The notes under the pieces were generated by a model, which was not told the origin of the DNA, ran no database searches, and saw only the letters and a program-made list of their open reading frames with translations. From Candidatus Omnitrophota bacterium (GTDB lineage: Bacteria; Omnitrophota; Omnitrophia; Omnitrophales; JACROU01), in assembly GCA_029261035.1 (NCBI GenBank), contig JAJDCD010000023.1, positions 186,001-250,000 of the forward strand: DNA of 64,000 bases, written 5' to 3'. The stretch's first letter is position 1; every line of letters starts with the position of its first letter. The translations under genes were made by a program, and so were the position numbers. Shown piece after piece: positions 11,467 through 42,466 of this stretch.

Positions 11467-14400
11467 TTAGGCAGCTCGGCTCAGCTGTCGACCATATTCG
11501 ACACGCTTCAATAGTCCATTCAACCACATTGAGGTGGCATTATTTGAATCTTCCGAAACTCCAGTCCAAAGAACTCCATCCTTCGTTAGAAGCAGTTTCT
11601 CGGTTAAGAGATCTTCCGGATAAACGATTCTGTCTGTTACCTGTTCAATAACTGAAAGAACAGCTTCTTGGGATCCTCGCTCATCATGGCGAATTCCAAC
11701 TTCAGGAATGTCTTCGGCAGAATTTAAGCTGTCTGTATTTTTTTCTCCTAAGCTAGATGCTGTCAGCATTTCAGAAAAAAGTTGTTGCCCTCTTTCTATC
11801 TTTCGCTGAACCGTTGTTAAGGGACGTGCTTGGAGAATCACCAAAGTACCAAAAGGGTCAAAAGCCCACTCAATATCCATTGGGTAGCCATACTCTTTGA
11901 GAATGGCACGCATCGCAATCCCAATAAGTTTGATTTGCCGATCATCCAAAACCCGTTTCTTTTGCTCTGCTTCGGGTGTTTTGATTTCCTTAATAAAAGC
12001 CATTGATTTCTCTTCTAAGTCGTAACTCTCCGTTGGAAAAAGCATCAGTTTTGATTCCTTTTTTCCCGTAACTACTTCTACTATCTCAAGGTCTCTGCTT
12101 AAATCTAAGGTGATAGAATCAGGATCCACCAACCCCTCCACAGCACTCATGCCCAATCCATAAACTGCTGCAATCTGCATTTGGGACAGGTTTCCATCTG
12201 GAATATTGACACTATGAGCAACCCCCGAAGAGATCGCATTCACCATGGGCTCCACCAGGATAGCCTCGGCCCCTGAAGCCCACACTTTTGGAATCGCCCG
12301 CACCCCTTGCTCGGGCCCATGAACCGTAGGCTCTGTATGGCCTTCCCCCGCTTTAGCTTTTTCCTCGGAATCTTCTTCAAGCCCTGAACTTCGATACATA
12401 TAAACTCCCAGAGTAATCAAAGCCTGCTTCACTTCTTTAGAGACTTCATCTGTCCCACGAACAAATTCACGAAGAATTTCGCTCCAGAGTTGAGGTAATG
12501 GTTTTTCGTTAATCCCATCAAAAAACGCAAAGATTTTTTGTTTATATGCGTCTGAGGTGTTCGGATCTTTTTTCAAAAGCCCTCTCATCCATTTCACTTG
12601 CCGTTCAAATACTTTTCGGTAAGCTACCAAATGAAGTTTCTGATCTTCAGCCGACAATTGGTTGCCTTGAGATTCTTGATAGACGCGAGCCGTGATAGCA
12701 AAACCAGGAAGCGTTTTGATTTGAGGATGATTCAATGCCTCAATTACTTCATGAAATTCCGCAGAGTGAGATGCTTTCCCTCCCACAGAATGCCGGGCTA
12801 GTCGCGGAATATCTGACTTATTCATAAATTTATTAGTAGAATCCCCTGTAGCGGTTACTAGCTTTTTCGCTTTGGCCCTTGCGTCCGCCAACCGCTGTGT
12901 CAGGTCCCGCTTCGTTACTGGAGCAACATCCTCCAGTTGAACCTGTAGCAAATCACCCCATTTTAAATACTGTTTGGCCTGACGGGCCGACATTTGATCT
13001 CGTTTTGAAGAGTCCGCCTCTAGATCTTCGAATGTTCGCGTTAACCACCGCCTTCTTTCTTCCGTAACCGTCCTCATTTTTTGGTAAAGCTTCTTAAGCA
13101 TTCCTTCATAATCTGTTTCGTCAAAGTAAATCTTTTTTTCTTTCAAAAGATCTCGAATTGTCTCAATTACTCCAACTTTTTCGCGAATAACCGTTAGCGA
13201 ATAATAGATCTGCTCCATTCTCCGATTCTGTTCGATCAGCTCCGAAAACTGGTTAATCAAATCAATTAATTGGAGGGACAGGTGATGCTCTACAGTGAGA
13301 AGGTAATTGATCACGGTTGTTTTTAATCCAGAATTTGCTAATGAAGCTTGAATGATCTCTGTTTTTTGATCATCACTCAAGTTTAAAGAAAGCAATGCTT
13401 CTTGGAGTGCAAACTTTATTTGGAGCGCATCGTTCAGATGTAACACCATGGTTAGAAAAGCAACATAACCTTCATTCCGGGACGAGACAGGCCCTTTTGA
13501 CAGCGCTCTTCGCAAAGCCATGCTCAGATTTAAGATTTTTTGAATCCCCTCATTCTCAGCCGGGGCCACAGACATTAAAACTCCACGATTAGCATCCACA
13601 GTAACAACATCTCCCTCGTTGATCGTCACAAGCAGCTCTTTACCAAAATCAACTTCCGAAAAATAAATACTATCCTCCTCGGTTTCCAATTGCTGAATAG
13701 GTCTTTGCTGCGGAGTTGCGGCTTTAAACTGGAGCCTCCCCGAGGATGTAACCGTTGCTGTCTTTAGAATAAGTCCAGGTATTTGATTTTCCTGCGCCTG
13801 CGTCGCTTGATGAGACATTAGTCCTCCCGTCGTTGTTATGACTGCTAGACTCGCTTTGATTAAAGGATCATGTTTAGGAGCCGCGCTGACACCGACAAAA
13901 ATACCCCCTTCATAATCCGAGGGCTTTCTTCTGTCATTCAAGGGAATAAGACGACCCGAGACAAACCCACTTGAGGTCGGCACACCTCGTACAGCGATGA
14001 GGCTCAGCTCTTCTCTGGGATGGAGAAAAGCTCTAAGCCGTTCTTTTAAATAGCTCAAGTCTATAGAAGGCCTTTCAACTGCTTCAATTATATAACCATT
14101 AAGAGAAAAAATTTCTGCCAGATCCTTTACTGTATGCACTTGAGAATTTGCTCTCACTTTTTTTCGAGTACGATCCAGGAACGGTTGAGCAGAAGGGTTG
14201 TCACCATAGACACCATAACCTAAACAAAAACGATGCGTAATTCGATCTTGAAAAACAACGAGCCGAAAATCATCATGAGGAAACTGATACAAAAACTCTA
14301 TGACATCGTACCCTCCAGCTTGGCCTATCAACCTTGATGCATAAGCATAGCTTTGAAGGTGCTCCGTCAACTGAGCAATGTTCCAGGCTTGATTCCAGAT

Positions 14401-17400
14401 ATCACTATCCTTTTTACCTTCCTCTATTAAAAAACGAAGGAAATAGGATACGAGTGAACCCTGTTCAGACTCCCTATCCAAACCCAAACGACGCCCCCGT
14501 TCCTCTTGCTCAGCTAGGTCATCCAGATAAACTTGTCCCCAAGGGTAATCAATTAGCGGATTTATAAAGCTGGCTCGAGCCTGTTCAGAATACTGAGCTA
14601 AGATTTTTTTCTCTCCATACCTTCGAACTACCTGTTCAGTAAACCGATCCTTATATGGCTCTCCTCCCCGATAGGGAAAACCCTGCTGTAAAGTTTCAAT
14701 ACTGGGATACTGCTCGAGCAACCGCCCTAAGTGATCTTCAATTCTTGCTCGTAACTCCTCCTCGGTTTCTTCTTCTTCCCCGTCAGCATTCAAAGATGTC
14801 TTTGTCTCATCACGTTCCTTCTTCATTCGTCTTTCCAATATCCTTCGAATTAAATCTTCATCCTCCTTTACAAATGGCTGTATAATTAGATTAAACTGAG
14901 GATGGACACTCAAGGCAGGATGAAGTGTTCCCATCCGTTCATAATGATCGGCCCAAGCATTCATTAAACGATCTAAATATTCTTCTCCATTCTCTTCCTT
15001 TAAAAAAAACTTGTAGTATTTCTCAAGCCACATATCCAATTCAACCGTATTTCCTAATACATGAAGAGCTCTCTTAAGAGCTTTCCGAATTTCATACTCT
15101 GAAAAGGCCCCATGGTCCTTGTCTAACAAGGCCTCAACATGATATTTTCCTCGACGAACTGTGTGAAACCCCAAACGAACAAGGATTCGCTGAATCAAAT
15201 CAACCCGTAGTGCACTCCCCTCCCATTCTTTTCCAGAATCAGTAAACTCAATAATAGCCCGGCCTCCCTGATCAATGGGGCCCGGCCTAAAACTGGCTCG
15301 AGCCTGATGGACCCGAAATGGAATGAACAAGGTCGCCTCTCTATCTCCAGCATAAATAATTGGCTCGTTTTGAGTATCAGGTCGATAAGTATTTACATTG
15401 TGATTAGTTCCAAACGCCTCAACCAAAAACTGGACTGCCATCGGCATTGGCGATAAGGACCGGTCCTGCCTTAAATCTACGTAGCGGGGTTGAAACTTAG
15501 CTGATTGAGGAGGATGATCTGAGTGGTGTGTCACAGATAAAATTTTTACCTTACCTAAGGATTGTCTTTCGTTCGGCTTAAAGTATCTCATTTGCTCCCG
15601 AATCCCTCTTTGATGAAATATATTCAAGACCTCCTCATAGGTCAATTGTTCCACCTCTTTATTATCCATATCAATCGCCCCCAACACACCATTCCATTCA
15701 TCTGAAGGTTTACGAATCAATTCATCTACAATTAAAGTCCTCACACCTACCATACGTTCGTTAGCTGTATTCGGTAAATGAAGCTGTCCTTTTTCTCTTC
15801 TCAAGCTCGGTGAAACATAAATAATGCCCATAGAATTTCTAACTGAATGAAGGGTTTTTGAAATAGCACATCGAGCTAAACAAGCCTCTATGAGACCCGT
15901 TTGCACACTCAAATCATTGATTGGATATCCTGAGTAATGAAAATCCATACTCATGTTTTGAAGACGGTAATGCGGGCCCTCTTCATCGGGTTTTATGTAT
16001 GGGCCTGCTAAATATACTGGATTCCCTTCTTCATCATCCCTTATAATTGTTGGTTCGAACTCATCTCGAAAAAGATCAAAATAATCTACAACAAATTTTT
16101 CAAGCAGCTCCGTCACTTCCTCAAACTCTTGAAACGTCTTTTTAGGACGATGAAGAATTTGGAGGATGGTGGTGTTTAACGCTTCCCACTCCTGATATTT
16201 TTTATGATGCTCTATTTGTTTTTTGGAAGCATATGCGGCTTCTAAATCATCCACAACCGATAAGTGGTAATGGCGATCCACAATGCGAAAGCGTTCGGGC
16301 ATCTGCTCCGTTAACACTTGTGCCACCTGAGGGCTCATATTGAATCGAACCGCTTGATTTCCATCTTCTAAATTTAGCTCCTGAATATCCGTCCGCCTTT
16401 TTAGGACATCGATTAACTTTTCCGGTGGCTCCGGATAACCCGGAACACCTGAAACAACCTCTACGACTTCACGGACACTTGCATCTACCGAATGAACCAC
16501 GTTGGAAAGGCCAAATTTTTTAATAAACATATCTAACCCGTCAAGTCCAAACAGATTATAATAATAGTACAACTTCTTTTGTTCTTTCTGGACTGTTTCT
16601 CTTAATTTACGGTCTGCCGCCGCGCTCAAACCTCTTAAATAAATATCAAAAATATTTTCAGTAGAAAATTCAAGAGCTCTGTCGCCTACCCCTAAACTAG
16701 CAGCTTGAGCAGAAGACAGAGCATAGGGAACCGGTGAAAGGTTTTGCCGCAACATCAAACTTCTATAACTTTGTCTTGAGTCTCCAGACAGAGAGGGGCG
16801 AACAATACAGTAATTCCATTTAGACTGATCAAAGGTTTCCTTAAAACCTTGCGAATGGAAACCTCCGGAAATCACAATGGCTCGTTTACCATCATTGATT
16901 TCATTTTTAATCGTTCTAACGAAAGCCGTTTCTCGCAAAACAGCCAACCTATAAAAGTTGAGAGCTTCCTCTATCATAGTAACAAGGAGAGAGTCTTCTG
17001 AACTTAAAACTCGAATTCTGAGCTGCATCTTTTGAATCTGAATATATTCTTCTCTGCTTAACTCAAGCCGAACCAGTTTCCTAAGCAAGTGAAACGCTTC
17101 TACTCGCTCGACAGCTTCCTTGTCTTCTGGCTTTTTTGCGAGTTGGATCGACATAGTTTGAATCCACTCCTGGATTTCATGGAACAAATCCGGGCCATTT
17201 AATTCGGACTGGTAAATTCTGTTTTTTATCCATTGGATAAATTGGGGATAATTCAAGAAGTGAAAACCGTCATCCTTCAAGACGTCATAGAGCTGCTCCA
17301 TCAAAAACCGAGGGTTCAGGGATGAGTCCTTTTCAGAAAGAACCTCCTCAATTTTTGTGATAAGGGTTTCTGCCCCCAACCCGGAATACTGAGTACGAAT

Positions 17401-18479: not shown

Positions 18480-18492
18480 GAGCATTATGGGG

Positions 18493-21400
18493 TTAGGCGG
18501 CTCGGGCTATAGCTAGATCTGCTTCGTGAGTTTGAACTAAGGCTAACAGAGCTTCCCCGACTGCGGAGAAGAATCCATCTATTTTTCTTAACCCATATTT
18601 GGTTAGGAAAGCCAGTGGGTTTTCGGATTGAGTGTAGAGCAACGCTACTCCTAAGAGGCCGTTCTCTTCATTTGGATATCTAAACTTGTTGTCTCCCACT
18701 AATGTGAAGTCCTCTGATGGATCTATGATTCTCGATAGATGGATATTGTGTTGGGCTTTGCGGATTCCTTTTGCTGCTTCCTTTTCACTTTGTGGTGTGA
18801 AATAAATATTTGGAAGATTAAGTAATGGGTGTTTATCGTATGAAGGGGCATTAGTCACCACTACTCTTAACTGCTTTGGATTTCTTGCTGCTAATTTGAA
18901 GATTTCATCCAATTGAGCTAGCGAAAAGTTTTCAATATCTTTTCCATCGATAAATACGTTTAAGGATTTTTTTAGGTAATCTAGGATAGCAACGTCTTTG
19001 GGTTGTTTTTTAGAACCTAAACTAAATCCATAGAAATCAACATTAATCTCATCATCACTTCCTACCTCTTCATCATCTCTTTCTAACTCTTTTTCAAAAG
19101 CATCCATCATTGCATAGGGATCATCATCAAAATTTTCATCAACCCTTCTATTCGCATGCATAGTTCGTTCGTGCTGGTCGTCTGATTGCAAAACAAGATT
19201 GACCGGAGACAACGTGAGACTCGTCAATGCAAAGTCTGCTTCATCCAATGGACTCAAATGGTGCGCTTGTCTGAGTTCTCTTAAGTCATAATCGAAATCC
19301 TCATATTCATCCGCTATCTGTTCTGCCGTTTCAATAAAACGATTACCCACAGGAACTGTGCGTTGACTCCCTTCAAAAGGCACAATTTCAGGAAAATCAG
19401 AAGCTAATGATTTATAATCCGAGCGCAACTTAAGAGGCCAAATCGTAACCGTGCCATCCGAGCTCATTGTTAATATATGACTTCCATCTCGACTAAAATC
19501 GGCAAAAACAAATTGTTTGGCTTCAAAATCTAAAGGCCCCACGAGAGGGACATTTTTCCTCAAATCATAAAGATAATAATTATCCTTGGTACGATCTCTC
19601 GCCAAACCAATTCGTTCAGTCCATGGGCCTTCTCTATCAAGCTGAAATGAAGCCCCATTAATATTGAATTTTGTAACATCTTCGTCCGGGTCCAACGAGT
19701 GAATTCTAAAATAGTTTATTTCGCCATCATGTGTATTTAAAATTAATTTGTTCCCTCTAGGACTTATAAAATAAGCTTCTCGTGGCCCCCTCCCCCTACT
19801 CTCATAGTAAATTCGAGCACCTTGATTAATGTGCCACACACTAATAACAGAACTATCTGGATAGTCATATTGAGACTGAATAGCAATTCTATTTCTATCT
19901 AAATCAAAAGCAAAAGAAACCAGGGGTTCTAATTGATCCTGGAAGGTGATCTTATTAGGCGGAGGAGCAGGAATAATATAACGTGTTATTTGACTCAGCT
20001 CGGGATCAAACTGAACCCGTTCCAACTGAGTTCTTGGATATTTCCGTTCGGCAACGGAACTCATATAAAAACTAGCAATGCGATCATTGACAGCGCTGAA
20101 TAATGCACTCACTCGAGGAAGAGAATTTTGGATTTCTTGAGACGTGTTCGCATCTAATTCACCTAGAAACTCATGAAGTTCTCTTCGTAATAACAAAGCT
20201 TCGCTCGGTGGAAGCTGTGTTCTGATTTCATCCAAATCTTGAGCTAAGGCATTTGCAATAGTACGGTATTCTTGCGCAATAACAATCCTTTCAATCTCAT
20301 AACTGACCTGCTCTGCTTTATCCGCATCACCCAAAGCAATCCATATCTCCAAAGCAGTTTGAAATGCTTCCAACGCATCGGATCGATAATTACTTCCTTG
20401 ATAAGAAATCCCTAAATCGGTGTAATAATCTGCCCACTCTCTCGACTCATGAGCAAGTCCACTACGCTTCAGTTCTCGTTCTCTTTTAAGCAAACTGTCT
20501 TCACTAGATTTCCCCAAACTCTTCCCCTCCACACCTGCTCGAAGCCATTCTTCTTCTTGAAGGCCTTCTTGTGGTGAGCTATCCTGAAATTGTCGTATCC
20601 ATGCCTCCTTCAATTTATCCAGCTGTGCTAGCGCTTCGTCTGGACCTATTTTCTCTGCCTTCCTCACAATATCTAACACTTCGTCCTTCCTAAATTCTCC
20701 CTCTATTTTCACCCATCCTAATTCTTCCACTTTCCTAAAACCTTCTCCTGTCTTTTCTTTCATCGTTTCTGCTATTTCAACTAAAAACTCCACGGACAGG
20801 ACTTCTTTTTTTACTGTTTCTGCCCTCACTGCTATAACCAACTTGCTTAGAGCTTCAAAGGCATGCGCAGAAGACTTTCCACTGCCTTGGGCGATTCTTT
20901 CGAAAAACTCCACGTCCAACAATTCCTCTTTCACCCTTCCCTCTCTTACTCCTCTTACCAAATGCCTTAGAGCTCCAAAGGCATGCGCAGAAGACTTTCC
21001 ACTGCCTTGGACGATTCTTTCGAAAAACTCCACGTCCAACAATTCCTCTTTCACCCTTCCCTCTCTCACTCCTCTGACGAAGTCAGTTAGAGCTTCAAAT
21101 GCCTTCCAAGAACTCTCTCCATTCGCTTCAACGATTCTTGTCAAAAACTCCACGGACAGGACTTCTTCTTTCAATTTTCCCACTCTTACTTCTGCTACCA
21201 AATATCTTAGGGTATAAAACACGTTCAAAGACTGATGTTCACTGGCTTGAACAATTCTTTTAAAGAGTTTATCTATTTCTTCTAATCGTATTTCTTTCGT
21301 GCTGCCTCCTATATAGGAGATCATTGCTTCTATTGCGTTTTCCTTCTCTTCCAATATCTTTACCAGCGTTGGGTATTTCCTTCCTAACTCTCTCCAATTT

Positions 21401-24627: not shown

Positions 24628-24662
24628 TGAGATACAATGCCCCTTAATTACTACAAAAAGAG

Positions 24663-24672
24663 TACCATATTT
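24663..24672 (-). promoter_or_regulatory. Promoter-like motif AAATATGGTA upstream of giant 2
   Basis: AAATATGGTA on the minus strand lies 35 bases before ATG 24627. The same motif occurs 38 bases before the GTG starts of giants 3 and 4. TATGGT could serve as a -10 box. The equal distances and equal ribosome-site spacing argue for shared regulation. Confidence 0.5.
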
Positions 24673-24833
24673 CAGACCTATATTCACAGTTCCAGAAAAG
24701 TCTCAGATTTATATCGTTTTTTAAATGAGAGGTAACTATTTGTTATTAAATTGGTTGGGTATTATGGTATGTAGAAATTAAGGATGTCTCTTAGTTTATT
24801 CTTTACCTAATTTATCTTATTTTCACTCCAAAC

Positions 24834-25733: not shown

Positions 25734-25750
25734 TATTTATGCTCTCTCTT

Positions 25751-30700: not shown

Positions 30701-33700
30701 ATACCATACAAAGAAGCATAAGGGTAATCACCCCACGCTAGCTGAGCAAGATACGCTGAGGTCTCGTGTTGAATACGAGTGAAGTCCTCTTTTCGCTCCA
30801 AGTAATGTCTAAATTCATGACGTAAAGTTCCTTGTTCTAATCGGTGCACGATTCTTTTCAAAACACCAAGATAGGCAACAAATTCTGGGGTTAAGTCCGC
30901 AACTAGCCTCTGCTGCTCGTACTCGATTCCATCAAACCTAGACATAAACTCCTTAAAGGTTCTCCATAACTTAGTGTCTGTAATAAGAGGAATTTCAAAC
31001 ATGTCTCCATGGATGAACAAATCCCAATCTGGATTCCAATCTAAATCTCTTTTCAATCTTTCTCGGGTAAAACCTGCAAACCGTCCTCTCTGATGATCCT
31101 TCATTGCAGGATCTTTTACGCTCATCTTCTCAAGCAATCGAAATTCTTCTGGTGTAATACCCATTTCTTCTGCAATCCGTTTATAAATGGCGCCCTCTTT
31201 AGACTCCTCTTTTAACCCATGGATCAGCTCAGGAACCAAAGCTCTTCTCACATTACGCGTTAATTCATCTCTAAGTGCATGGGAAGTATCATCACGTGGC
31301 GTGAAATATCCCACAGAACCGTCTCTGCCGAAGGCTCGGAAACTAAGGCGAGTTTTAGAAAAAATATCTACTTTGTCTTTCACTTCTCCTTGAGCATCCA
31401 CAGCGGTAAATGTTTGAACAGCATCAATGCGGAAAAGAATGTAATTGATACGGGGGTGCTTCAAATTTCTGAAAAAATCAAAAGTAAAATACAACCCATT
31501 CTTATTTAAATAAGAATCATTTAATTCCTTTTGAATCAACATCAACCTTTCATCAAAAGCCTCAAACCATTCTTTCTTCTCAGCTTCATCTGCTTCCCTT
31601 GGAAATTTGTCTAATGTTTGTGTCAACTCCGTAATTTGAGAAAGCAAAGAAATAAAACCTTCTCCCAATTGCAACCCTCCAGCTACAAGCTTTGCTTGAC
31701 CCAATCTCGAAGATGTCTTTTCTAAAAAATAGGCAAAATGTGTTTCCATAAAACTTTTCAATTGAAGCTGCGCGTAATCCCCATCAAAAGGCTTCGCAAC
31801 TCCCAAACTGTTAGCATTGGATTGGCCATCAGGCCGTTTTATGTTAGGACGCTGAGCTCTTCTTGTGGGAGCTGAAGTTTCTGGCTGTGTTTCTGGCCAT
31901 GCATCTGGAAATTGAATGACTTTTTTTCCATCTGGATGCTCCAGCCTTGTTCCATTCATTAAGAACTGCATCACTCCTTTTCTAGCTTCTGGGGAAAATT
32001 TAACGGAAGAAAGAAGCCCTTTAAAAATCTGTTCTAACCGAACATCATCGTCTGTTTTCTGTTTATTTAAAATAAAAAGAAAGGCACTCTTTAAAACAAA
32101 AACTCCTCTTCTAACTTCACTAGAATAAAAAGGACCTTCTGTTTGTAAGCTCTTATCAAACTCAATGTGGATACTTCTATAATTTAATATTTGACTTACT
32201 TTATCTTGAAATTGTTTGAGCCTTAGATTTTGCTGAGGGACTAAACTAGCAATTAAATAAAGAGCATCTTTAAAGTTGTTTATAGCATTATTGATCTGAT
32301 AACTCTCAAAACCTTCGAATCCCTTAACTCCCACTGTGACATGAACCTTTTTAATCCGGGCTTTCATAACGGCTCTCTCTTCTTGTTCTCCCAAGCTTTG
32401 AGCATCAACACCTTCCTCATCATCTTTCTCAGCCTCTGTGGCTTCTTTTTCTTTTTGCAATCGTTGTAACTCTTCTAGTTCTTTTCGAATTACTTCAAAT
32501 GGAATAACGATTTCACGAATAGCCCCTCGTTCACTAGGTCTGTCATAAATCTTGGTGGAACCACCAAAGGCTTCTACAGTCTCGGATATCCCTGACACCC
32601 CATTTCCTTGTCCTCCGAAAAACTTATACTCTTCCCCTTCCTCAAAGGCCGCTTTCCAAGCTTTCCTTTTTATAGCTCTTTTATCTATGCTCGTCTCTCC
32701 AAGGCCATTATCGATCAGCTGAATAACAAATTCTCTTCGTTCTTTATCAACAAGAATCCGTGATTGAAGTTGGTGCGCTAAAATGCGTTCTCCAAAACTG
32801 AAGTCTTCATCTTCTAAAATTTTTTCTCCATAAACACCCATTAAATAAGAGTCTATTGCATTAGAAAAGGCTTCTCCTACCATCAGCTTTAAGTCAATAA
32901 TCAAGCGCTCTCCCTCTCCATCCCACATCGTGTCTTGGATCAGTCTATATTGATTTCCAATATAGGTTTCCTTTTCTGACTTTTCCTTCATCAAATAAAC
33001 AAAAAGTGTGCTTAATATGGATAGAGCAAAACGATCGGATTGTTCTTTCATCTCCGATGTTTCTTGTGTATTTTGAACCCAGTCTAAAACGGCAGCCTGC
33101 GGCATTGAAAAAACAGTATGAGAAATCTCTACGTCCTCTTCATTTCGATTCCATGCACGTCGACTCATTCGGGCTGCTTCTTCGACAGCTAATTGCCCAG
33201 CGAAATCTGTTAAGCTTCCATGAACACTGGAAAGCACCTTTCGAAATAAACCGCTGGTAGGGCTGGTTAACTCTTTCATAACTCCACGAGTAAAACCTTC
33301 CGTAACTCTTCCACCTCCAGCAATATGACTGTTTATCACATCATTAACTGCGTTTTGAAAACCTTCTCCAATCGCATTATCGGAACTGTCAAACCAACCA
33401 TCGTGATCTAAAGAAAAGCCCTCTGGCAATTCAAGGCGATCTAAGACCTTTGGACGACGCCCATCGGAACGCTCCAAAATTTCATAGGCAAACAAACCTG
33501 GAAATTTGCCTTCAGAAAAAGCCTGTTTAATTTCTTCCAAAGACATGTGATCATTCATTATTTGAGCAAAAGCAAAAGCTCCCCCTGAGCGAAGTTGAAG
33601 CAAAGGATCAAAACCACCCATAATAATTTTTTGCGCTAACTGGGCAGTGGGGTTTGCTGTTATGGCAAGGTGGGTAAGAACCCCTGTTGTCTTGAAGATA

Positions 33701-36108
33701 AAAGCTCTTCGGCTGAGAGCTGCCATTTTCGAAATAAGGTGAACAATGTCAGCATGCTGAAGCGCTTCGAGCATTAAGCGAGCCAGTGCTTTCTCTGCAC
33801 TTTCTTGTTTTAGCTTGTCCATCGAAGAGACTTGGATTAGAAGTTGTTGTTCTTCTTTTTTGTAATGTTGATTTACAAAATACCAAGCTTCCGGAATAGC
33901 ATTTGGTGTTTTCTTTAAATAAAATATAAGCCTCTCTACAATCGCATGAGGCTCTTTTTCCTGAAGTATCCGTTGGAGATCTTCCCTATGCCTAATCTCT
34001 AACGCTTGAGGTGCCCAATCAGGAAAGTAAGGGCCAAATCCCAGCCAATTCTTGACGCGGCTTGCTGTTTTCGAAAACAGGGACTTTTCTTTACTTCCTA
34101 AGCTATTTCCCTCAACACTATTGGTAAAAGCTTGTTCAAAAATAGGGGCCATTAAATCAGACTCGTATTTAAATCGAACTGCATGAAGGCCAAACACTTC
34201 GGCTTCTTCTACATTATCAGAATTATCATCAAGGAAAAGAATCTCTTCGGGTTGAATGTCTTTAAATCTTGGGTTTTGACGCAAGCGTTCAAGAACCAAA
34301 GGATAAATGTTGTTGCTTGCTTTTGAGGTCCCAAGATCTGTTGATAGAAAATGAAGATCTTCCTGAAACAGGTCTCCGTAATTTTCTCGTACAAGTCGTA
34401 AAAAGAAAGGCTCGTCCCCTGCAAGTCGGTCCGTTAGAAAACCGATTTCCTTCGAAATAGATTTTAAGTTTTCCAAAGCTTTCTTAATTTGGGCCGTTTT
34501 TTCAGGGTCTATTTCAGCTCGGTCAAAAAAGTAAAGCTCCCACCACTCTTCTAGTGTTAGCTCTGCTTTTTTCTCTGAGCGTTGGGTAATTTTCTGATTT
34601 ACTCTTTGAATATAAGCTTCCATATCCATAGTGCCATGAAGTAACTCGTAGTACACCGTACTCTTATCTCCATCATACGCAATATCTTCTCTTAATGCTT
34701 CAAGGTCCGTCTCATCTGGAACAGAAAAACCATAACGTTTTTTTAATTCTTCAATAATCAGCTCCCACCGTTGTGCACTAGAATATCTTTTGGGAAGCAA
34801 GACCCCATCAATGTCTAAAAGAAATACTCTTGGCTCAGGATAACTCTTTCCGAGGCTTGAGGCGGAAACAATGCCCATACCCGCTTCAATTAAAACAGGC
34901 TTTGGAAACTCTCCGTTTTTAGGCGCCAGCCACATAAGGTCTAAATCAAAGCTGCCATCTAGCCTTTCTGACCATGGAATTCCAACTTTTTTAATACGCT
35001 TAAATAAATACAAAAACTCTGCTTTTAGAGTCTCGTCCACATAATCTCTAAACTCGGATAAACGAGACTCTTTCAAATAGCCTGCATCGATTAAAGGCTG
35101 AAATAAACCAAGACCCTGTATTGTCGATGCAGCCTCGCGCCGTGCTCCAATGCCTACATTTGAAAAATAAGCGGAGCTACCAATGCGCGAAAACCATCTT
35201 CCTTTTAAAAAGTCAAAATATCCTGTCTTAAGGTTTCCTAGAAACTGATGTCTTGTTTCGAAAGCTTTTCCATTTATTTTAATTGCTGATATAGCTGATT
35301 CGATCATACCTGCATCATAGCGATCTGAGGAATCTGAGATTAGTTTCCATAAACGATAAAGAATATCTAAAACATCTACTTCTTTCGGATTTAATGTTAT
35401 TTGTACTGTAAATGTTTTTATGTCTTCAACGTATCCTTTTAAACCAAGTATTTTAAAATAATTTTCTATTGGCATGATTGTTGAAATATTATCAAAAGCC
35501 ATCGTTAAGACAATTTCTGTTGGGCTTACTTTTGTAAGATGAAATATGTCTCGACCTAAAGCATCTTGGTTCGGTTTATAAATATATTTTTTAGGAAAAG
35601 CACTGTTTTCTTCTAAAATTTTTGCCATTACTATTTTAAAATCTCTGACATCTTCCGGCTGAGCAAATGGTAGTATGACGGAGTGATTTCCAGAAAGAGA
35701 TCCTTTCGGATATTCTTTTTCTTGATATAATTTTGGTTCCTCCTTAAAAGCGACAAAAAAATCAGGTTGAGCGATCGGGCCTCCTCTTAACAAGTTTCTA
35801 GTTTCATACTTCCCACTAAAAATTGAGATGAGTTGACTGTAAGTGACATTCTCAGGTGACTCTAAAGAAGGAAAAGGCGTTTCAATATCCGTTGTTTCAT
35901 GAAGTGTTCTTTTTTGTCCTAAACTGGACGCTAAAGACACCTGCTGCTTTACAGGGTTCTTTAAGGCCACCTCAAAGAAAGATTTGGGCCTTGCTGCATA
36001 GACAGGCGTCGCATATTGAAGAATACTGAAAAGAAAAAAAATAATAGACACAGAAATAGCGGTAAATTTATAAAGTCGATGGGTTTTGGATGTTTGCTGA
36101 TGTTTCAC
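27754..36108 (-). CDS. Giant exported protein 3: HAD, GHKL-ATPase, HEFRH and helical-repeat modules with shared C-terminal domain
   Basis: 2784 residues from a GTG start at 36108. The signal peptide ends TPVYA|ARPKS at about residue 38. S-L-G breaks lie at about 60, 417, 668, 1237, 1433, 2218 and 2607. Modules: an unrecognised N-terminal domain; a HAD-like hydrolase (FLLDIDGVLL, GFLTDRLAGDE, ILFLDDNSDN); a large region ending in a GHKL ATPase (VGEAFSNAIDSY near 1076, IDNGLGE, GGQGNGVSGISE near 1170); a short beta/alpha domain; a long domain with RHEFRHYLE, an HExxH metalloprotease-like site at 1764-1768, followed by HETSAYLAQ; six 40-residue helical repeats ending in EIVRKVD and PEWLR; and the 178-residue terminal domain, almost collinear with that of giant 2, ending SRAA. 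Cytoplasmic-type folds in an exported protein are unexpected. Confidence 0.87.
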   Translation of the reverse strand: MKHQQTSKTHRLYKFTAISVSIIFFLFSILQYATPVYAARPKSFFEVALKNPVKQQVSLASSLGQKRTLHETTDIETPFPSLESPENVTYSQLISIFSGKYETRNLLRGGPIAQPDFFVAFKEEPKLYQEKEYPKGSLSGNHSVILPFAQPEDVRDFKIVMAKILEENSAFPKKYIYKPNQDALGRDIFHLTKVSPTEIVLTMAFDNISTIMPIENYFKILGLKGYVEDIKTFTVQITLNPKEVDVLDILYRLWKLISDSSDRYDAGMIESAISAIKINGKAFETRHQFLGNLKTGYFDFLKGRWFSRIGSSAYFSNVGIGARREAASTIQGLGLFQPLIDAGYLKESRLSEFRDYVDETLKAEFLYLFKRIKKVGIPWSERLDGSFDLDLMWLAPKNGEFPKPVLIEAGMGIVSASSLGKSYPEPRVFLLDIDGVLLPKRYSSAQRWELIIEELKKRYGFSVPDETDLEALREDIAYDGDKSTVYYELLHGTMDMEAYIQRVNQKITQRSEKKAELTLEEWWELYFFDRAEIDPEKTAQIKKALENLKSISKEIGFLTDRLAGDEPFFLRLVRENYGDLFQEDLHFLSTDLGTSKASNNIYPLVLERLRQNPRFKDIQPEEILFLDDNSDNVEEAEVFGLHAVRFKYESDLMAPIFEQAFTNSVEGNSLGSKEKSLFSKTASRVKNWLGFGPYFPDWAPQALEIRHREDLQRILQEKEPHAIVERLIFYLKKTPNAIPEAWYFVNQHYKKEEQQLLIQVSSMDKLKQESAEKALARLMLEALQHADIVHLISKMAALSRRAFIFKTTGVLTHLAITANPTAQLAQKIIMGGFDPLLQLRSGGAFAFAQIMNDHMSLEEIKQAFSEGKFPGLFAYEILERSDGRRPKVLDRLELPEGFSLDHDGWFDSSDNAIGEGFQNAVNDVINSHIAGGGRVTEGFTRGVMKELTSPTSGLFRKVLSSVHGSLTDFAGQLAVEEAARMSRRAWNRNEEDVEISHTVFSMPQAAVLDWVQNTQETSEMKEQSDRFALSILSTLFVYLMKEKSEKETYIGNQYRLIQDTMWDGEGERLIIDLKLMVGEAFSNAIDSYLMGVYGEKILEDEDFSFGERILAHQLQSRILVDKERREFVIQLIDNGLGETSIDKRAIKRKAWKAAFEEGEEYKFFGGQGNGVSGISETVEAFGGSTKIYDRPSERGAIREIVIPFEVIRKELEELQRLQKEKEATEAEKDDEEGVDAQSLGEQEERAVMKARIKKVHVTVGVKGFEGFESYQINNAINNFKDALYLIASLVPQQNLRLKQFQDKVSQILNYRSIHIEFDKSLQTEGPFYSSEVRRGVFVLKSAFLFILNKQKTDDDVRLEQIFKGLLSSVKFSPEARKGVMQFLMNGTRLEHPDGKKVIQFPDAWPETQPETSAPTRRAQRPNIKRPDGQSNANSLGVAKPFDGDYAQLQLKSFMETHFAYFLEKTSSRLGQAKLVAGGLQLGEGFISLLSQITELTQTLDKFPREADEAEKKEWFEAFDERLMLIQKELNDSYLNKNGLYFTFDFFRNLKHPRINYILFRIDAVQTFTAVDAQGEVKDKVDIFSKTRLSFRAFGRDGSVGYFTPRDDTSHALRDELTRNVRRALVPELIHGLKEESKEGAIYKRIAEEMGITPEEFRLLEKMSVKDPAMKDHQRGRFAGFTRERLKRDLDWNPDWDLFIHGDMFEIPLITDTKLWRTFKEFMSRFDGIEYEQQRLVADLTPEFVAYLGVLKRIVHRLEQGTLRHEFRHYLERKEDFTRIQHETSAYLAQLAWGDYPYASLYGIANHAERNEPEETYYEAGKVIVSALIREMFKKYPFKDNGERYQGLSIEGDSQNFVDRLRTKNDFLAEQLPQILARLLTLNGMELRELAKNAWEIEFEKPLDDYQVLEVQESRQMESQLKDFRANRSEVYEKLTRLIEEYKETGQVDEALLHSIPLQERADADMELDLQGIDSDVLKSSRWKMITTIPRGDYHWFGKDKLRRLVQEFGRNVFQDISSTASKFLIGEVDWDYQGAAPFKYRVGVFVPVTAFFQTGFRYPSKPYLEGKSDQLFRLFNRAEADAVKNRRDMMERVTQGRYRGIHAVSESGEPLIIDRTKTLPLVHESTIRNVRQEMVHHLIIEAGGNITAEQLYDELGRLVIHSARSLDRAMDWLLSTKKGKAVLKDRLNFDPDSISIQDLTQNLNDEDVFAGWPEVVAKSLGIEQRYENSGLSEKLGMSWEKLKTQHSDLVQILNTTFNAMDLFERYINNGESLNSVEELFKRVSKVKQRPFSKSFNELKLLSEVSNKERITQVTMSVQLLTEIVKASKDAAYFVFRALRHLAESTEQNVGMGLFLDVTFLIPIVKASESGSASAIELLREVEEGVSQGLLSPKLISIESYVLIAKTSAPYQQRAFEQLRKLIERVKELKVDEEFVRLEFLEEISKAAKGYTQTAFDFLRVVGEIIKTGKLSKDVLDIELFERIAITTEKFEYDVFDLLTGVIEDVKRGTINVGVLDKGLLFEVADQMKENARYAFRRIEKLGQVAAKGVFRKDQVLEIVRKVDTIGPDEVLRQLDLLTEIWKRASQETETPLNGQEPEWLRKDLKGNSLGEEESQRAVVAILDNLSQRVNIFIGALDINNFSREQLDEIFKLAARNPKQLRVIVVNAAGYDKHPLLNLPNIYFTPQAELAAGEAIRKAKHNLHLSRMIDPAENFALVGENKFRYANDENGLLGVALLYTQSENPLSFLTKYNLRKVEGFFSSVQETLLALVQSHEADLLLSRAA

Positions 36109-36146
36109 GGTACCTTATTTCTCCATTCATACAAAGAAATTAAGCT

Positions 36147-36169: not shown

Positions 36170-36243
36170 ATTACCTGAACAGAATTTATACACTTCCTAA
36201 CTCTTTATTTTGTAAAGGGTTATGATTTTTTTAATAAGAAATG

Positions 36244-36660: not shown

Positions 36661-36673
36661 AACACTCTCCTTT

Positions 36674-39600
36674 TTAAGCCGCGATTGCGACTAAATATTG
36701 AGCTTGGTAGCTCAATACCATTTCTAATAATTGAGAACGCAAGTTTAGAACCAAGAAACCTTCTTCATCTCTTACAAAGCCATTGGTGCGGCCATCACTA
36801 TCTTGATACAAAAGAGCCATTCCTACAGTTCCTACTTCATCTCCATTATAACGCACAAAGTTAAACTTAGATTCACTTAACTGCTCTCTGGGGTCTATCC
36901 TCTTTGAGAGATGAATCATTTTGCCTTCGACGGTACGTTGTACTCTATTATAAACTTTTTCTTCATCTCCTGAATAAGCTTCTATATTTTTTGTTTTTCT
37001 AAATAAAGGTGCTAGATCACTGTTTGTATCATTATACACAAAGACTTTTACCTTATCTAAAAGAGCATAAAGAAACATCTCTTCTCTTTGTTTTTCCGTC
37101 AATAGTCTAAAGTCGTGTGCGTCTATAAGCACTGTGTGTTGTGAAGTGAGCGTATCCAGCTGTTCTTTTAGCCCTAAACTATTTCCTTCTGCTATCTTCC
37201 AGTTTTCTCCGATAGGTTGCTCACCAAAAAGCGTATGGCGCGTTGTTCTAGCTAGGTTGTGCAAGCCAGCTAAGGATGGAGTAGCCCCTTGAACTAAAAG
37301 CCAATGAAGCGGTTGTCCTAAAACTGTTCCTTCCAGAATGGCCTCCTGAATTAGAGAGCTGTTGTCTTGGATAACACGTAGAGCTCTGTCTTTTAAATTT
37401 TCGATAATTTCTTGAGAAATTAATCGTTCTGAAACAAGTATTTCTAGCGGGATAAAACCATCAATCCTTTCTTTCTGACTATCATCTTGTTCTGCCATAA
37501 CTTGAATAATTTCTACTTCTTCCCCTGAAAGACGAACGCGAAACAAAAGTCCCACATCCTCTTTCCCATAGATGGGGTGCCTATCCAAGTGTAAATGGAT
37601 CAAAATTTCGTTAGGGTTATTAGATTTAACAATATGTTGCTCCGGATGACTTACTACCATATCTAAAGCTGCTAAACGATACTCAAAAGACATCTCTACA
37701 TAAGACCAGTTCTGTCTTTTAAGTGCATTAAGTGTATTTGCTACCTTTTGTTTCAAATGATTCACTTTTTCTCCTAAAATAGTTTTCTTAATACCTAGAC
37801 TATTTCCCTGAGAAAAATCTAATAACTGAGGAGCTTTCTCTTTTGCTAATTCTACAAAAGGGGCTTTAATTTCATCTGAAATTCTATTGTTTTCTAGAAT
37901 GGCTTTTAATATATCTTCTGCTGAACTGCTAAAGTTATAGATAATCTCTAGGTTGCGACCTTTTCCACCCCCTACGGAATAAATCTGAACCCCAGGGCGC
38001 ACACCAGGCATGATTCGGAACACATCAAAACTCTCACCCGTTGTCTTAATATCTTCCATACTTAATGAAGTTGGGCGGGTTTGTTTTGGAGGCTTCTCTT
38101 TCTCAAGCTTCACTACTTTTATTGGAATTCGATGTATCTTCACACTTTTCTCTTTTGCGAGCGCTTCGAAAGCCTCTCGGATCTCACTTGGGAGGGTTCG
38201 GTCATTAATAAGTGCTAATAGAACTTCTTTTGGTTTTTTTGCCGATGGATACATAACTGTTATTTTATATTTTTTAGAAACTCTCGATTGCCTTACTGCA
38301 TCAATTTTAATTTTTGTGTCTACATTGGTTCCCATCATATTAAAAGCACCAAATTGCCTACCAACAGCTCTAATATCTTGGATTCTTAACTCTGAAACAA
38401 CTTGCTGTATCAACGGCGGCTGAGGCATCATGGCTTTTCTTCTCTTTGTTGCCTCTCTTATTCTTGCTCTTTGGATACGTCGTTGGTCGGCTTCAGTACC
38501 AATAGTCCTTTTAGGAAACCCTGAAGGAGTAACGTGAGATTCTTCTTCTTTTCCTAAGCTTCTAGCTACAACGCCCGGAACTTGATTCAATATTTCAGCA
38601 GCAATGGCAATGGAAGTATAAATTTTTGCTGTTGGTGCAATGGCTTCATTCATAAAAGCGACTGCCGCTTCGGCACCTTGAGTCATTTGCTTATAAATCC
38701 CTTTCTCATCATTAAGAACAGACACCATTTGTTGAGCTAAAGACCCTTCCTCTATGGCTTGTGCTGCTTGCGTTTTTACCAGAAGATCCTTTGCGCTTAG
38801 ATTGTAATACCAGTCATGTTTGCTTTCAAAATACAGAATAGGCACATGTTGATTTGCGGGTTCAACTATATTTCTATCTTGACCAACCAAAGCTAAGTCT
38901 GCTATCTGTGATAATTTTACCAGCTCTCCCTGAGTTCTTAAAATCACAATATCCAAGTCACGGAAGGGAACTTTATCTGCTTCCCAACTCTCATTCCTTC
39001 TTTGATCTAATAGAGTTCTCTTCTTAACTCTTAAACTGTGAAGGATCGGCGATCTCATTAACTCTCCTTCTCTGTGAAGTAAACCTAAAATAAGTATTGG
39101 TCGTTTTTCTTTATCCACTTCTCGATAAGCTTCATTGTAGGCTTTGACTATAAGTCCCGCTTCCTTTTCTGATGGAGAATAGGCAATAATTACTTTTCTT
39201 GCAGAGTTTAAAGAAGAAATATTTTTTGAGACACCCTCTTTTTTAGGTGAAAGATATTTATAAGGCATTAGCGGTAACAACTGGTCTCTAGATAAAGATA
39301 TATTTGAATTAAACGCCAAAGAAACTTCTGCTTTTGATGACCCCGCGTCATCTTCTATAGATAAAAATGGCATCTCTTCAATATCTGCTCTTTCATCAAC
39401 AGTAAAACTTACTTGTTCTGGACTTAAATTTAAAAGATCGACAACAGCTTTTGAAGCGTGGAAAAAAGCCATTCGAGCACGATAAGCAATAAATTTTAAT
39501 GTGATCTTTTTGTTACTCATAAGCGATGCGATATCTACGCTACCATCTACTTGAATATATGGGTCTAAAACACCCAAATCTCCTTTAGAGTTTCCTAACA

Positions 39601-42466
39601 GCATTAGAGCCATAAGTAAATTCATAGGATCTATTTTAAATGCTCTTCTTAAGGCGTTATGGCGTTCCTTCGTATTTGCTAAATAATTAAACCCTCTCAT
39701 TGCTGCCTCTAAATCAAACGTAGAGGTTAAAACTTCCTTAAGAAGAATGTCTCCATGAATAGAAAAAGCTTCTTGTACCGCCCCATTCCCAAAAACTGTT
39801 TTTTCACTTATTCGAGATAATGTTTCTATCATTTTTTCACTTTTAGCAGAATGCAGAATAGATCTCCACGAAGCAGAACTCATATTTTTTCTTAATAAAT
39901 TTCGAATATTTTCAACCCCTAAAAATTGGATTAAATCCTTTAAAGCATCTTTGTATTTAGTAAGAGCAAGGAAAGCTTGCCTGTAGTCATCGCGGTTCTT
40001 TTCATAAAATTCTTTCATTAAGTCTATGCCCAACGAGTCGGGTTGGATCAATTCATCAAAAAGTTTTTTCAGCAAAGCATCTTTCCTCATTGCAACAGAC
40101 ACATCTTCCTGCAGCATCCCCAAACTAGCAGCTGATGAAGGCTTTGAATTTTTAGTTACATCAAATAATATTTTGAAACGCAAACGATATTTGTTGGTAT
40201 CCCCATCTGGAAAAAGAATGCCTCTCTTATAATCTTCTACTAGAAAAGAACTTCTCCATACTTCATAAGAACCTCTTGCCTCAGAATTCAAAGATTCATA
40301 AAGCGCCGGTTGACCATAAGGATCATATAAAGCCATTTTCAACCATTCAGAATCTGACTCCAACGCTCCATAACGATCTCTAACAACCTTTTCTGCATTC
40401 GTCTTAAGCCATTTTAAGGCTAATGAATTTAGGATCTCTTCAGCAGGAATATAAGCAGAATAAATCCCTTCAGCGTCATCTAACCTCTTAATCATAGTTT
40501 GAGCTAGGGTAAAACCATTTGATTCCCTTATAAAACGAAATAAAATATTAGCTACTCCTGAGTCTCTTCCTTCTTGTTTTAATTGAAAATGAACCCAATG
40601 CTCTCCCTGAGCACCCAACACCAACGGACCAGAACCTTCTTGTCCTTGAATCAAAGATAAATTGAAATTTTCCTCTTTTCTTATACGACCTGATAAATTC
40701 CTTACCCTTCCTTCTAAATACTCAACTAGTTCTGATGTCTTTGGATTTGATTCTGGTGATATTCTCCAACGAAATAACCCTTCTTCTCCTTTGGAAATGT
40801 TTTCTCCAAAATATTTAATAGTGACCCTTTCTTCATCTTTTCTAACTTTTGTCCAAAGCCCTTTCACATTCCCGGAAATACCTTCTGCGAGTTTTTCACT
40901 GTTTAAATACCATCTTGTATTATTTTTTCTTGCTTCTAAAATTTTCTTTATTTGCTCCTTTTCTGGTTCTATAGCATCTTGTGCTAAATGGATGATCCAA
41001 TCGACGATATTCTGTGGAAGAACTTCAGTTAACGAAACAATAGCTCCATGAATTTCCATTAATGCTTTTGTTTCTCCTAAAGGCTCTGTTAATTCTATGC
41101 CTGTATCCGTTTCTTCTATTCTAAAGAACAGTCCATTTTCTCCCTTTCCTTCTTTTATCATATGGAGATGTAGCCAAAGGGAGCCATCCGGGCCAGGCCA
41201 TATATGCCCCTCTAAAGTAGTCTTTGGGTTATATTCCATCTCAAAGCCTGCTTTCACCGCTTCTGGGTTTTCATAAAAACCCTGCATATCTGAGACTACT
41301 TGCTCTTTAAGAAGACGTACAACATCTATATTCTTCTCTCCAAGACTGGCTCCAGTTATTTTTACTAGCTCTGAGATTGTTTGGAAAATCTCTGAAGAAA
41401 AAGGGTCTTCAAATCTTTTTTGTTCTTCTAACGTTAAATCTTCAAAAAAGGTTAGAATTTCTTCCCATGGAGAAAAAATAGCATAACTTATCTTTCTTGC
41501 AGTTTCTTCTTTCAAATAGTCTACCTCAAAATACCCTGTTCTTTCGTGAATATGCTCTGGCATATAAGATTCAATCTCTTCTCTCTTTTCCGCCAAATAA
41601 AAAGGAACATGCTCCTCTCTCAAAGAATGCCAGTATTTACGACTTTCCTCTTCGTTAAGAAAAGCCACTGTGGCAAATTCATAAGCAAGAGAACCTTCCC
41701 TTCTTAAACTTGCTTGATACCCAACCTCATACACCGTAGTGTCTTGAGTGCCCAACTGGTTAGATAATTGTTTTATGGAAACATCCTGAGGAGAATGATT
41801 AAAAATTTGTGGATCATGTTTAGAAAAACGAACATTTAAACCATTTTTTGATGGAACCACTTTAGAAATTAGGAAGTATTCTCCAGGACTCATTTCAGCA
41901 AAAACAAAAGTCTTCACAAGACCATAGGAAAAGCTTCCCTTTTGAACTTGAATATCTCGTACAAGCCCCTTTTCTTCATAAACCCCAACTCCAAGAGGTG
42001 TGAGTTTTTTTCTTTTCTGCTCTAAAACGTCCGGGTAAACAGAAACAAATTGTGTCTTTTTTCCTTTAGGCAAATAATTCCAAATAAGTTCTGCAATCTC
42101 TTTTGCTTTTAAAACCCCATTGTCCCGCACCAAATCTGTTAAGCGATATCCCTTTGCTAAGTAAGGATTCATAAGAAGCATTCGGTCAAAATTTTCATCA
42201 CTGTATCCTTCAATAGCACTTAAATAAACGAGAGCATGATTCATTTTTTTTTGGATATGCTCTATATCAAACTTTTCCTGCTCCCCTTTATCCCCTAAAG
42301 ACTTAGCCGTAGAGAAACTCGAAGCCTGTTCAAAAAACGATAAAGGCCTTGCTGCAAATACAGGCGTCACATAAACAAATGTATTTAAAAGTATGAAAGA
42401 AAGGGACACAAAAATAGCGATGGGTTTTCTTAATGAGTATAATTTTGGTTTAATTGGATTGCTCAC
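36674..42466 (-). CDS. Giant exported protein 4: KdtA-like and other modules with divergent shared C-terminal domain
   Basis: 1930 residues from GTG 42466. I prefer this to a TTG at 42490 because AGGAGA then sits at the same 12-base spacing seen for giants 2 and 3, and the lead-in to the signal peptide becomes 19 residues in all three. The signal peptide ends TPVFA|ARPLSFFE. S-L-G breaks are at about 55, 373, 780, 1302, 1555 and 1762. About 1085-1300 resembles the C-terminal GT-B half of KdtA/WaaA (IIAYSPSEKEAG, RTQGELVKLSQIADLALVG, IVEPANQHVPILYF) with the family's glycine-rich EP loop eroded. Two related domains (WLHLHMIKEGKGENGLFFRI near 430; LIHLHLDRHPIYGKEDVGL near 1610) share a pattern. 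The 169-residue terminal domain ends VAIAA. Confidence 0.85.
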   Translation of the reverse strand: MSNPIKPKLYSLRKPIAIFVSLSFILLNTFVYVTPVFAARPLSFFEQASSFSTAKSLGDKGEQEKFDIEHIQKKMNHALVYLSAIEGYSDENFDRMLLMNPYLAKGYRLTDLVRDNGVLKAKEIAELIWNYLPKGKKTQFVSVYPDVLEQKRKKLTPLGVGVYEEKGLVRDIQVQKGSFSYGLVKTFVFAEMSPGEYFLISKVVPSKNGLNVRFSKHDPQIFNHSPQDVSIKQLSNQLGTQDTTVYEVGYQASLRREGSLAYEFATVAFLNEEESRKYWHSLREEHVPFYLAEKREEIESYMPEHIHERTGYFEVDYLKEETARKISYAIFSPWEEILTFFEDLTLEEQKRFEDPFSSEIFQTISELVKITGASLGEKNIDVVRLLKEQVVSDMQGFYENPEAVKAGFEMEYNPKTTLEGHIWPGPDGSLWLHLHMIKEGKGENGLFFRIEETDTGIELTEPLGETKALMEIHGAIVSLTEVLPQNIVDWIIHLAQDAIEPEKEQIKKILEARKNNTRWYLNSEKLAEGISGNVKGLWTKVRKDEERVTIKYFGENISKGEEGLFRWRISPESNPKTSELVEYLEGRVRNLSGRIRKEENFNLSLIQGQEGSGPLVLGAQGEHWVHFQLKQEGRDSGVANILFRFIRESNGFTLAQTMIKRLDDAEGIYSAYIPAEEILNSLALKWLKTNAEKVVRDRYGALESDSEWLKMALYDPYGQPALYESLNSEARGSYEVWRSSFLVEDYKRGILFPDGDTNKYRLRFKILFDVTKNSKPSSAASLGMLQEDVSVAMRKDALLKKLFDELIQPDSLGIDLMKEFYEKNRDDYRQAFLALTKYKDALKDLIQFLGVENIRNLLRKNMSSASWRSILHSAKSEKMIETLSRISEKTVFGNGAVQEAFSIHGDILLKEVLTSTFDLEAAMRGFNYLANTKERHNALRRAFKIDPMNLLMALMLLGNSKGDLGVLDPYIQVDGSVDIASLMSNKKITLKFIAYRARMAFFHASKAVVDLLNLSPEQVSFTVDERADIEEMPFLSIEDDAGSSKAEVSLAFNSNISLSRDQLLPLMPYKYLSPKKEGVSKNISSLNSARKVIIAYSPSEKEAGLIVKAYNEAYREVDKEKRPILILGLLHREGELMRSPILHSLRVKKRTLLDQRRNESWEADKVPFRDLDIVILRTQGELVKLSQIADLALVGQDRNIVEPANQHVPILYFESKHDWYYNLSAKDLLVKTQAAQAIEEGSLAQQMVSVLNDEKGIYKQMTQGAEAAVAFMNEAIAPTAKIYTSIAIAAEILNQVPGVVARSLGKEEESHVTPSGFPKRTIGTEADQRRIQRARIREATKRRKAMMPQPPLIQQVVSELRIQDIRAVGRQFGAFNMMGTNVDTKIKIDAVRQSRVSKKYKITVMYPSAKKPKEVLLALINDRTLPSEIREAFEALAKEKSVKIHRIPIKVVKLEKEKPPKQTRPTSLSMEDIKTTGESFDVFRIMPGVRPGVQIYSVGGGKGRNLEIIYNFSSSAEDILKAILENNRISDEIKAPFVELAKEKAPQLLDFSQGNSLGIKKTILGEKVNHLKQKVANTLNALKRQNWSYVEMSFEYRLAALDMVVSHPEQHIVKSNNPNEILIHLHLDRHPIYGKEDVGLLFRVRLSGEEVEIIQVMAEQDDSQKERIDGFIPLEILVSERLISQEIIENLKDRALRVIQDNSSLIQEAILEGTVLGQPLHWLLVQGATPSLAGLHNLARTTRHTLFGEQPIGENWKIAEGNSLGLKEQLDTLTSQHTVLIDAHDFRLLTEKQREEMFLYALLDKVKVFVYNDTNSDLAPLFRKTKNIEAYSGDEEKVYNRVQRTVEGKMIHLSKRIDPREQLSESKFNFVRYNGDEVGTVGMALLYQDSDGRTNGFVRDEEGFLVLNLRSQLLEMVLSYQAQYLVAIAA

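Follow-up and report, generated by a model that had tools for sequence, protein, structure and literature searches.

Viral polyproteins are cut at lineage-specific cleavage sites, short words at the joints between modules whose spelling co-evolves with the protease. C-terminal sorting domains that are removed after export are familiar from type IX secretion, PEP-CTERM and similar systems. MARTX-type proteins are, according to parts of two reports (PMC2900308; PMC2780291), large and secreted and have modules that are released by site-specific cutting between them; their cysteine protease domain cuts after Leu (PMC2780291). Giant proteins of the Omnitrophota are on record as well (Seymour et al., 2023; PMC10066038): the sections of that study devoted to them describe very large, poorly conserved predicted proteins with few annotated domains, propose roles in adhesion or predation, count ORFs above 20 kb, and mention neither a shared architecture nor a linker word.

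The window analyzed here, 64,000 nucleotides of contig JAJDCD010000023.1, belongs to a Candidatus Omnitrophota genome of 2.70 Mb in 26 contigs, whose GyrA protein is 69% identical to that of Ca. Omnitrophota bacterium STB_166 and 49-55% identical to the other matches listed. It encodes four giants with genes of 5.8-8.4 kb, which lie below the 20 kb threshold, while homologous giants in the same genome and in its relatives exceed 36 kb (at least 12,013, 12,257 and 14,273 aa). In comparison with the published giants of the same phylum, as far as the sections cited above describe them, the proteins studied here, up to more than 12,000 aa in length, are united by a common N-terminal module, a C-terminal region, an ...AA end, and a short peptide word that is specific for each bacterial family.

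All four giants are encoded by intact ORFs on the minus strand, as are the words within them, and each begins with a signal peptide, assigned by eye and by a hydrophobicity window without a trained predictor. Giant 1 (11467..18243; 2258 aa) continues with an N-terminal module containing the residues DAH, EG and GGFH (aa ~50-510), a word AASLG at the end of this module (16690..16704), PEP-synthase-like pieces, a word ASSLG 15 aa past the PPDK_N domain (11746..11760), and the C-end ...LSRAA; it possesses just these two full words. The PEP-synthase parts of giant 1 are arranged in the reverse of their usual order, with the PEP-utiliser mobile domain (aa 1445-1554) ahead of the ATP-binding PPDK_N domain (aa 1819-2150). 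Giant 2 (18493..24687; 2064 aa) is built from an ARPKS tail, two methyltransferase-like modules, helical repeat modules and a C-terminal domain (18496..19020) with the C-end ...IARAA. Its seven words are AASLG shortly past the signal peptide (24427..24441), AKSLG (23500..23514), AKSLG (22786..22800), GKSLG (22210..22224), ASSLG (21448..21462), GKSLG (20512..20526), and GFSLG (19015..19029), which precedes the C-terminal domain.

Giant 3 (27754..36108; 2784 aa) possesses a HAD phosphatase module exactly flanked by two words, a GHKL-ATPase-like module (a sub-threshold match), a repeat module, and a C-terminal domain (27757..28284) with the C-end ...LSRAA. Here, the words are ASSLG shortly past the signal peptide (35917..35931), ASSLG 12 aa ahead of the HAD module (34849..34863), GNSLG 21 aa past it (34096..34110), AQSLG (32389..32403), ANSLG (31801..31815), AKSLG (29446..29460), and GNSLG preceding the C-terminal domain (28279..28293). 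Several unnamed modules, a Kdo-transferase-like module and a C-terminal domain (36677..37177) with the C-end ...VAIAA make up giant 4 (36674..42490; 1938 aa), whose words are AKSLG shortly past the signal peptide (42293..42307), GASLG (41339..41353), AASLG (40118..40132), ARSLG 22 aa past the Kdo-transferase-like stretch (38552..38566), GNSLG (37793..37807), and GNSLG ahead of the C-terminal domain (37172..37186). Directly past their signal peptides, giants 2-4 carry the sequence AARPKSFFExAL (e.g., window 42300-42360), which is similar to the tail of the N-terminal module found elsewhere (SRPHSFFEIAL in locus L038). Judged from this likeness, their N-ends look as though a deletion had removed the N-terminal module and joined the signal peptide to the tail. 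Between giants 2 and 3 (window 24834-26845) lie the genes of two small exported proteins with a common C-terminal tail (ETGTDTGIFxGxFEIPGVDSRDMSDIGxPE); one of them has three more ETGDSTGIF-like repeats, and neither has a clear family.

The tripeptide SLG occurs 25 times in giants 1-4 versus 3.8 times expected from composition, and it is the top enriched tripeptide with P ~6e-13, more than eight orders of magnitude ahead of the runner-up (2e-4); these Poisson figures assume independent residues, and some modules are repeats. In its fuller form, [AG][AKSNQR]SLG, the word was seen 21 times against 0.17 expected, and the three leftover SLG tripeptides (RQSLG, LISLG, PDSLG) look like background. 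The first-pass annotation of this DNA had reported about 22 copies, and we counted 22 when the word is written as [AG]xSLG; the single copy that it had placed close behind the signal peptides of giants 2, 3 and 4 is present at aa 83, 60 and 62, respectively. Its further statement that the linker is shared by unrelated modules applies to most copies, which stand ahead of unrelated modules, but not to four copies that reside in homologous repeat modules (giant 2, aa 392, 630 and 1076; giant 3, aa 2217) and are hence not all independent.

Across 41 giants of this genome, [AG]xSLG was found 175 times against 6.6 expected, and 170 sites yield the consensus [SVAIT]-x-[A 76%/G 24%]-[SAQKN]-S-L-G-[AKE]-[KQE] with acidic, hydrophilic flanks. 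To assess the distribution of the word among protein classes, 808 ORFs in 1.25 Mb of the genome (window included) were inspected; since the stretches read were partly picked for word matches, the densities are biased, and the contrast between protein classes is an internal one. Proteins of at least 900 aa that end in AA contained the word 125 times against 2.0 expected, and it was present in 31 of 31; in proteins shorter than 900 aa that do not end in AA, the count was at background (8 seen, 4.9 expected). The concentration in large exported proteins, which the first-pass annotation had named as the check to be made, is thus evident. Large proteins with a hydrophobic N-end that do not follow the common plan (e.g., C20:60003-69965) have no word, so length alone brings no words. 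The plan common to the word-bearing proteins consists of a signal peptide, the N-terminal module (in most of them), and a series of words and modules that closes with a final word, followed by the C-terminal region and the ...AA end. Two very large giants (at least 12,013 aa and 5,522 aa) possess one word each, close to the C-end. In the larger one (G000:C4:123960-159998; its N-end lies beyond the stretch read), the sole word is located 446 aa before the C-end.

Most of the recognised modules are enzymes or folds of a cytosolic type: PEP-synthase pieces, HAD phosphatase, methyltransferases, a Kdo-transferase-like stretch, macro domain, histidine phosphatase, ARMT1-like phosphatase, helix-turn-helix, LRR, and TPR. 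For many others there is no match at all, and no clear protease was seen among those recognised. One exported giant (L158:7759-17742) combines an ARMT1-like phosphatase, an AprA-type methyltransferase and helix-turn-helix domains, modules that are normally cytosolic.

The words are located between the modules. In BLAST alignments of the genome's own giants with those of relatives, own words were spanned 5 times versus 188 expected from shifted words, and the relatives' words 3 times versus 171. These cross-lineage counts are dominated by the N-terminal module; in the 29 alignments outside of it, own words were spanned 0 times (12.5 expected; 2/300 shifts as low) and relatives' words likewise 0 times (7.9 expected; 7/300 shifts as low). 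When the own giants were aligned with each other, 345 alignment ends fell within 10 aa of a word against 114 expected. The ends of cross-lineage alignments were no closer to words than to shifted words (27 vs. 40 within 10 aa), because distant alignments fade short of the joint. Words were absent from all 17 profile hits (5.2 expected to contain one), many of which end 12-39 aa from a word; the flanking words are 12 and 21 aa away from the HAD module of giant 3, and 18 and 16 aa away from a TPR block in another giant. Both the alignment spans and the profile hits therefore place the words between domains, as had been surmised when the motif was first noticed. The distance from one word to the next has a median of 390 aa and ranges from 11 to 2035 aa.

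Is it the peptide or the DNA beneath it that is kept? In the window, the Ser codon of the word is AGY in 21 of 22 copies, an observation that had raised the possibility of a DNA signal, i.e., a recombination site, an uptake sequence or the joint of a mobile element that merely happens to be translated. In agreement with such a signal, AGYTTRGG is enriched in the genome (GSNNNNAGYTTRGG, 205 matches vs. 26 for the reversed pattern). However, with one exception, the AGYTTRGGR matches in the window fall on the giants' coding strand, and the opposite strand has none; some other giants use TCN in their words. Moreover, there are nearly as many DNA spellings as copies: the 175 words of the genome have 163 DNA encodings (172 expected under free codon choice), and 33 identical RSELR words, the equivalent word of a relative (G021), have 32 (32.5 expected). 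For RSELR, this refutes the DNA signal. The nucleotide conservation in either orientation that characterizes uptake or recombination signals was not found, and we dismissed this candidate as negligible, together with the DNA-level recombination joint that the first-pass annotation had considered.

A second explanation regards the words as functionless scars, a short linker having been duplicated each time a module was inserted. Words within a protein do appear to be copies of each other in part: Ser is encoded by AGY in 134 of 166 words of multi-word giants (33% elsewhere), and its codon class is concordant within proteins (0.83 vs. 0.69; 0/5000 shuffles), hence some copies descend from others. 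These copies are, however, old enough for their third codon positions to have spread to near background, and yet forms that are one letter off, with S, L or G replaced, are not in excess (77/85, 53/52 and 87/104 seen/expected in the 41 giants). Old copies thus keep the peptide and not the DNA, which argues that selection acts on the peptide. Decayed copies being absent, we set the neutral scar aside as a very improbable explanation, a judgment strengthened by the fact that the spelling changes in concert at all joints between families while the positions are kept.

To follow the word through related bacteria, we surveyed the giants of 45 related genomes, which are MAGs with broken contigs. In the window's own family, all three genomes (the own one and two others, each of a different genus) are enriched in [AG]xSLG and devoid of RSExR. 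In the sister family f3, by contrast, 18 of 27 genomes show an enrichment of RSExR (P<1e-6), and SLG is not enriched; the remaining f3 genomes are thinly sampled or favor variants such as [KR]xELR. The families other than f1 and f3 contribute only one to four giants per genome. Family f4 uses R[SA]E[AV]R in G037, RxELR in G030 and G038, and LSDSR in G035, while RSExR is found in family f5 and GFGA in family f6. Giants with the same N-terminal module in families f7-f10 and other classes had no clear word in small samples. Nor did the 15 genomes outside the class (12 with giants, three with stand-alone proteins of ~550 aa), apart from a repeat-like TDxSGAAP in G229 and a weak GARL in G189. These dialects overlap little between families. 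Within f3, residue 4 of RSExR is genome-specific (L in 33 of 33 words of G021, mostly T in G020) and concordant within genomes (0.46 vs. 0.21; 0/2000 shuffles).

The joints at which the dialects occur are equivalent. From GGFH to the first word, the median distance is 112 aa in the own family and 100 aa in the RSExR family; from the last word to the C-end, the corresponding values are 236 and 214 aa. The same internal module is preceded by EAKSLG in the window's genome and by RRSEVR in G019. Each family thus spells its own word at equivalent joints of homologous proteins. Since the spelling is lineage-specific there, and since one-letter-off copies are not in excess, a sequence-specific reader of the word is supported. 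Spelling that drifts in concert across the joints of a genome and switches between families is expected if a trans-acting reader sets it. A DNA joint, a neutral linker or a modification of fixed chemistry would not be expected to yield such a pattern, and the dialects make recombination scars and residue-specific modification less favored than a co-evolving reader.

Two further explanations are to be judged by the dialects. Signals of the sortase type sit at C-ends. If the words were sites of covalent modification or ligation, such as O-glycosylation, sortase-like transpeptidation or cross-linking, one might point to the Ser in three of the four spellings and to the exposed linkers in which the sites lie. 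But AxSLG, RSExR, LSDSR and GFGA fill the same role, the GFGA core contains neither Ser nor Thr, no acceptor residue is common to all dialects, and the words occupy many internal joints, unlike sortase-type signals. Glycosylation or attachment at one residue, another proposal of the first-pass annotation, is consequently disfavored, and we give modification in general an outside chance. Pausing of the nascent chain, by which each module would be folded or exported before the next one is made, would account for words that act at the protein level, are short and stand between modules. In that case, the words would be read by the ribosome; yet sister families differ in their words and not, in any comparable way, in their ribosomes. 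Furthermore, the core is short and lacks a proline-rich or tryptophan arrest pattern. We regard pausing as scarcely credible.

The giants also share their ends. The own genome has seven copies of the C-terminal domain of giants 2-4 (alignment A1), which is also found at the C-ends of relatives' giants; in the order, 16 of 47 genomes have it, and 34 of 35 iterated matches lie at a C-end. In most giants, the last word precedes a C-terminal region of ~170-310 aa. The last residue is A in all 35 complete giants that bear words, and 31 of these end in AA, compared to nine of 728 ordinary ORFs. At the C-ends of the giants, e.g., in the window at 11467-11500, 18493-18530, 27754-27790 and 36674-36710, the A/AA follows an amphipathic helix [IVL]xxAA, and the same A/AA end recurs in many complete giants of relatives. 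The ...AA end is likely a C-terminal signal, one whose spelling, unlike that of the word, is constant between families. The C-terminal regions of the four window giants have no Pfam or NCBIfam match, including named sorting domains such as those of type IX, and a PDB sequence search with the A1 profile retrieved nothing.

The N-terminal module (alignment A2), with its invariant DAH, EG and GGFH residues, was detected throughout the class (49 of 49 genomes, with as many as ~50 matches in one genome) and, across the phylum, in 143 of 285 genomes. It corresponds to no family in Pfam or NCBIfam (window 16690-18153 and related loci). Matches to ChaN (PF04187) were weak and all below the family cut-off (E 0.04 in one A2 member; 3.5e-4 and 6.7e-4 in two relatives' genomes); going by these matches, the module may be a distant relative of the Tiki/ChaN proteins. 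A PDB sequence search with its profile gave nothing useful, and hhalign profile comparison with YbaP of E. coli was uninformative. AlphaFold2 models of the C-terminal domain (three sequences; pLDDT 49) and of the N-terminal module (single sequence; pLDDT 40) were too poor for a fold search. In family f21 (G086, G144, G222), the N-terminal module occurs as a stand-alone protein of ~550 aa, which is possibly its ancestral form.

We consider it practically certain that the word is restricted to these giants genome-wide, stands between their modules, is selected as a peptide and is spelled by family. The view of the first-pass annotation that the word is a signal therefore holds, for a real and selected one that is confined to modular exported giants and found at module boundaries. 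Proteases are the commonest readers of such sites. The flexible linkers of modular exported proteins would carry the word as a recognition site at the protein level, where a sequence-specific reader would act whose preference drifts by lineage and drags all copies along. Most likely, this reader would be a protease with a processing role, by which the exported giants would be split into their modules and the modules released from the C-terminal region; a single reader, its nature as a protease and cutting after export are the steps that we infer. That the word is a site-specific processing site of exported polyproteins, read by a co-evolving protease, has in our estimate a probability of about one half. 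The placing of the words between folded modules, after the signal peptide and before the shared C-terminal region is what a polyprotein would need. In the own family, the flanking sequence [S/V/A/I/T]-x-[A/G]-x-S-L-G would fit cleavage behind the small residue [A/G], a rule that is not transferable to RSExR. From the two very large giants, whose only word is near the C-end, it would seem that the primary step may be to split off the C-terminal region.

These same giants count against processing as well, since most of their length would stay uncut. So do the giants of the neighboring families f7-f10 and other classes, which have the N-terminal module but showed no clear word in small samples. 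In addition, RSExR, AxSLG, LSDSR and GFGA have so little in common that a single orthologous protease would need large shifts in specificity. The main rival to processing is docking to a non-catalytic reader: a chaperone, a translocon or secretion factor, or a surface anchor that would grip the giant at intervals. It likewise requires a sequence-specific, co-evolving reader and exposed linker sites, and the shared ends (signal peptide, C-terminal region, ...AA) suggest a dedicated route of export or to the surface. The number and spacing of the words are irregular, though, and in some giants the only word is near the C-end; we consider docking unlikely. With processing as the preferred reading, we tentatively propose, at less than even confidence, a polyprotein code across one Omnitrophota class: each family's word would be read by its co-evolving protease, and outside of the cell this protease would turn the dozens of exported giants of a genome into hundreds of modules, with many enzymes of cytosolic type among them.

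The giant proteins of the Omnitrophota are a standing puzzle, and the boundary word allows them to be divided into testable modules from sequence alone. The switch in spelling between sister families provides a natural experiment for finding the reader, since whatever reads AxSLG in one family should read RSExR in the next. Among open PMC papers, we found nothing relevant on such words or on an Omnitrophota polyprotein; as judged against this literature, and with reservation, the word pattern is categorically new. The N-terminal module, with its invariant DAH...EG...GGFH, has its nearest described likeness in the Tiki superfamily (ChaN, PF04187) by sub-threshold matches only. With C-terminal sorting domains, the giants have in common that one C-terminal domain is found on otherwise unrelated exported proteins, here nearly always after a word; in the giants, the region is longer, at ~170-310 aa, and terminates with an amphipathic helix and ...AA. 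Like MARTX-type proteins, the giants are large, modular and secreted and have sites between their modules, with cleavage as yet a proposal here. They differ from MARTX-type proteins in their export by signal peptide and in their lineage-dependent words, hundreds per genome; neither a cysteine protease domain acting in cis nor RTX repeats were found, the domain having been sought by Pfam in the four window giants and six more giants of the genome. If the reader is a protease, the products released by these uncultured, possibly host-dependent cells could be predicted from the words, and the giants would form a cellular polyprotein system of a kind known mainly from viruses. Short sites under protein-level selection at module joints, as polyproteins have them, are present, and if cleavage is the right reading, the giants would work like viral polyproteins, with strong selection on each site; unlike these, they are cellular and exported, and spread over tens of separate genes.
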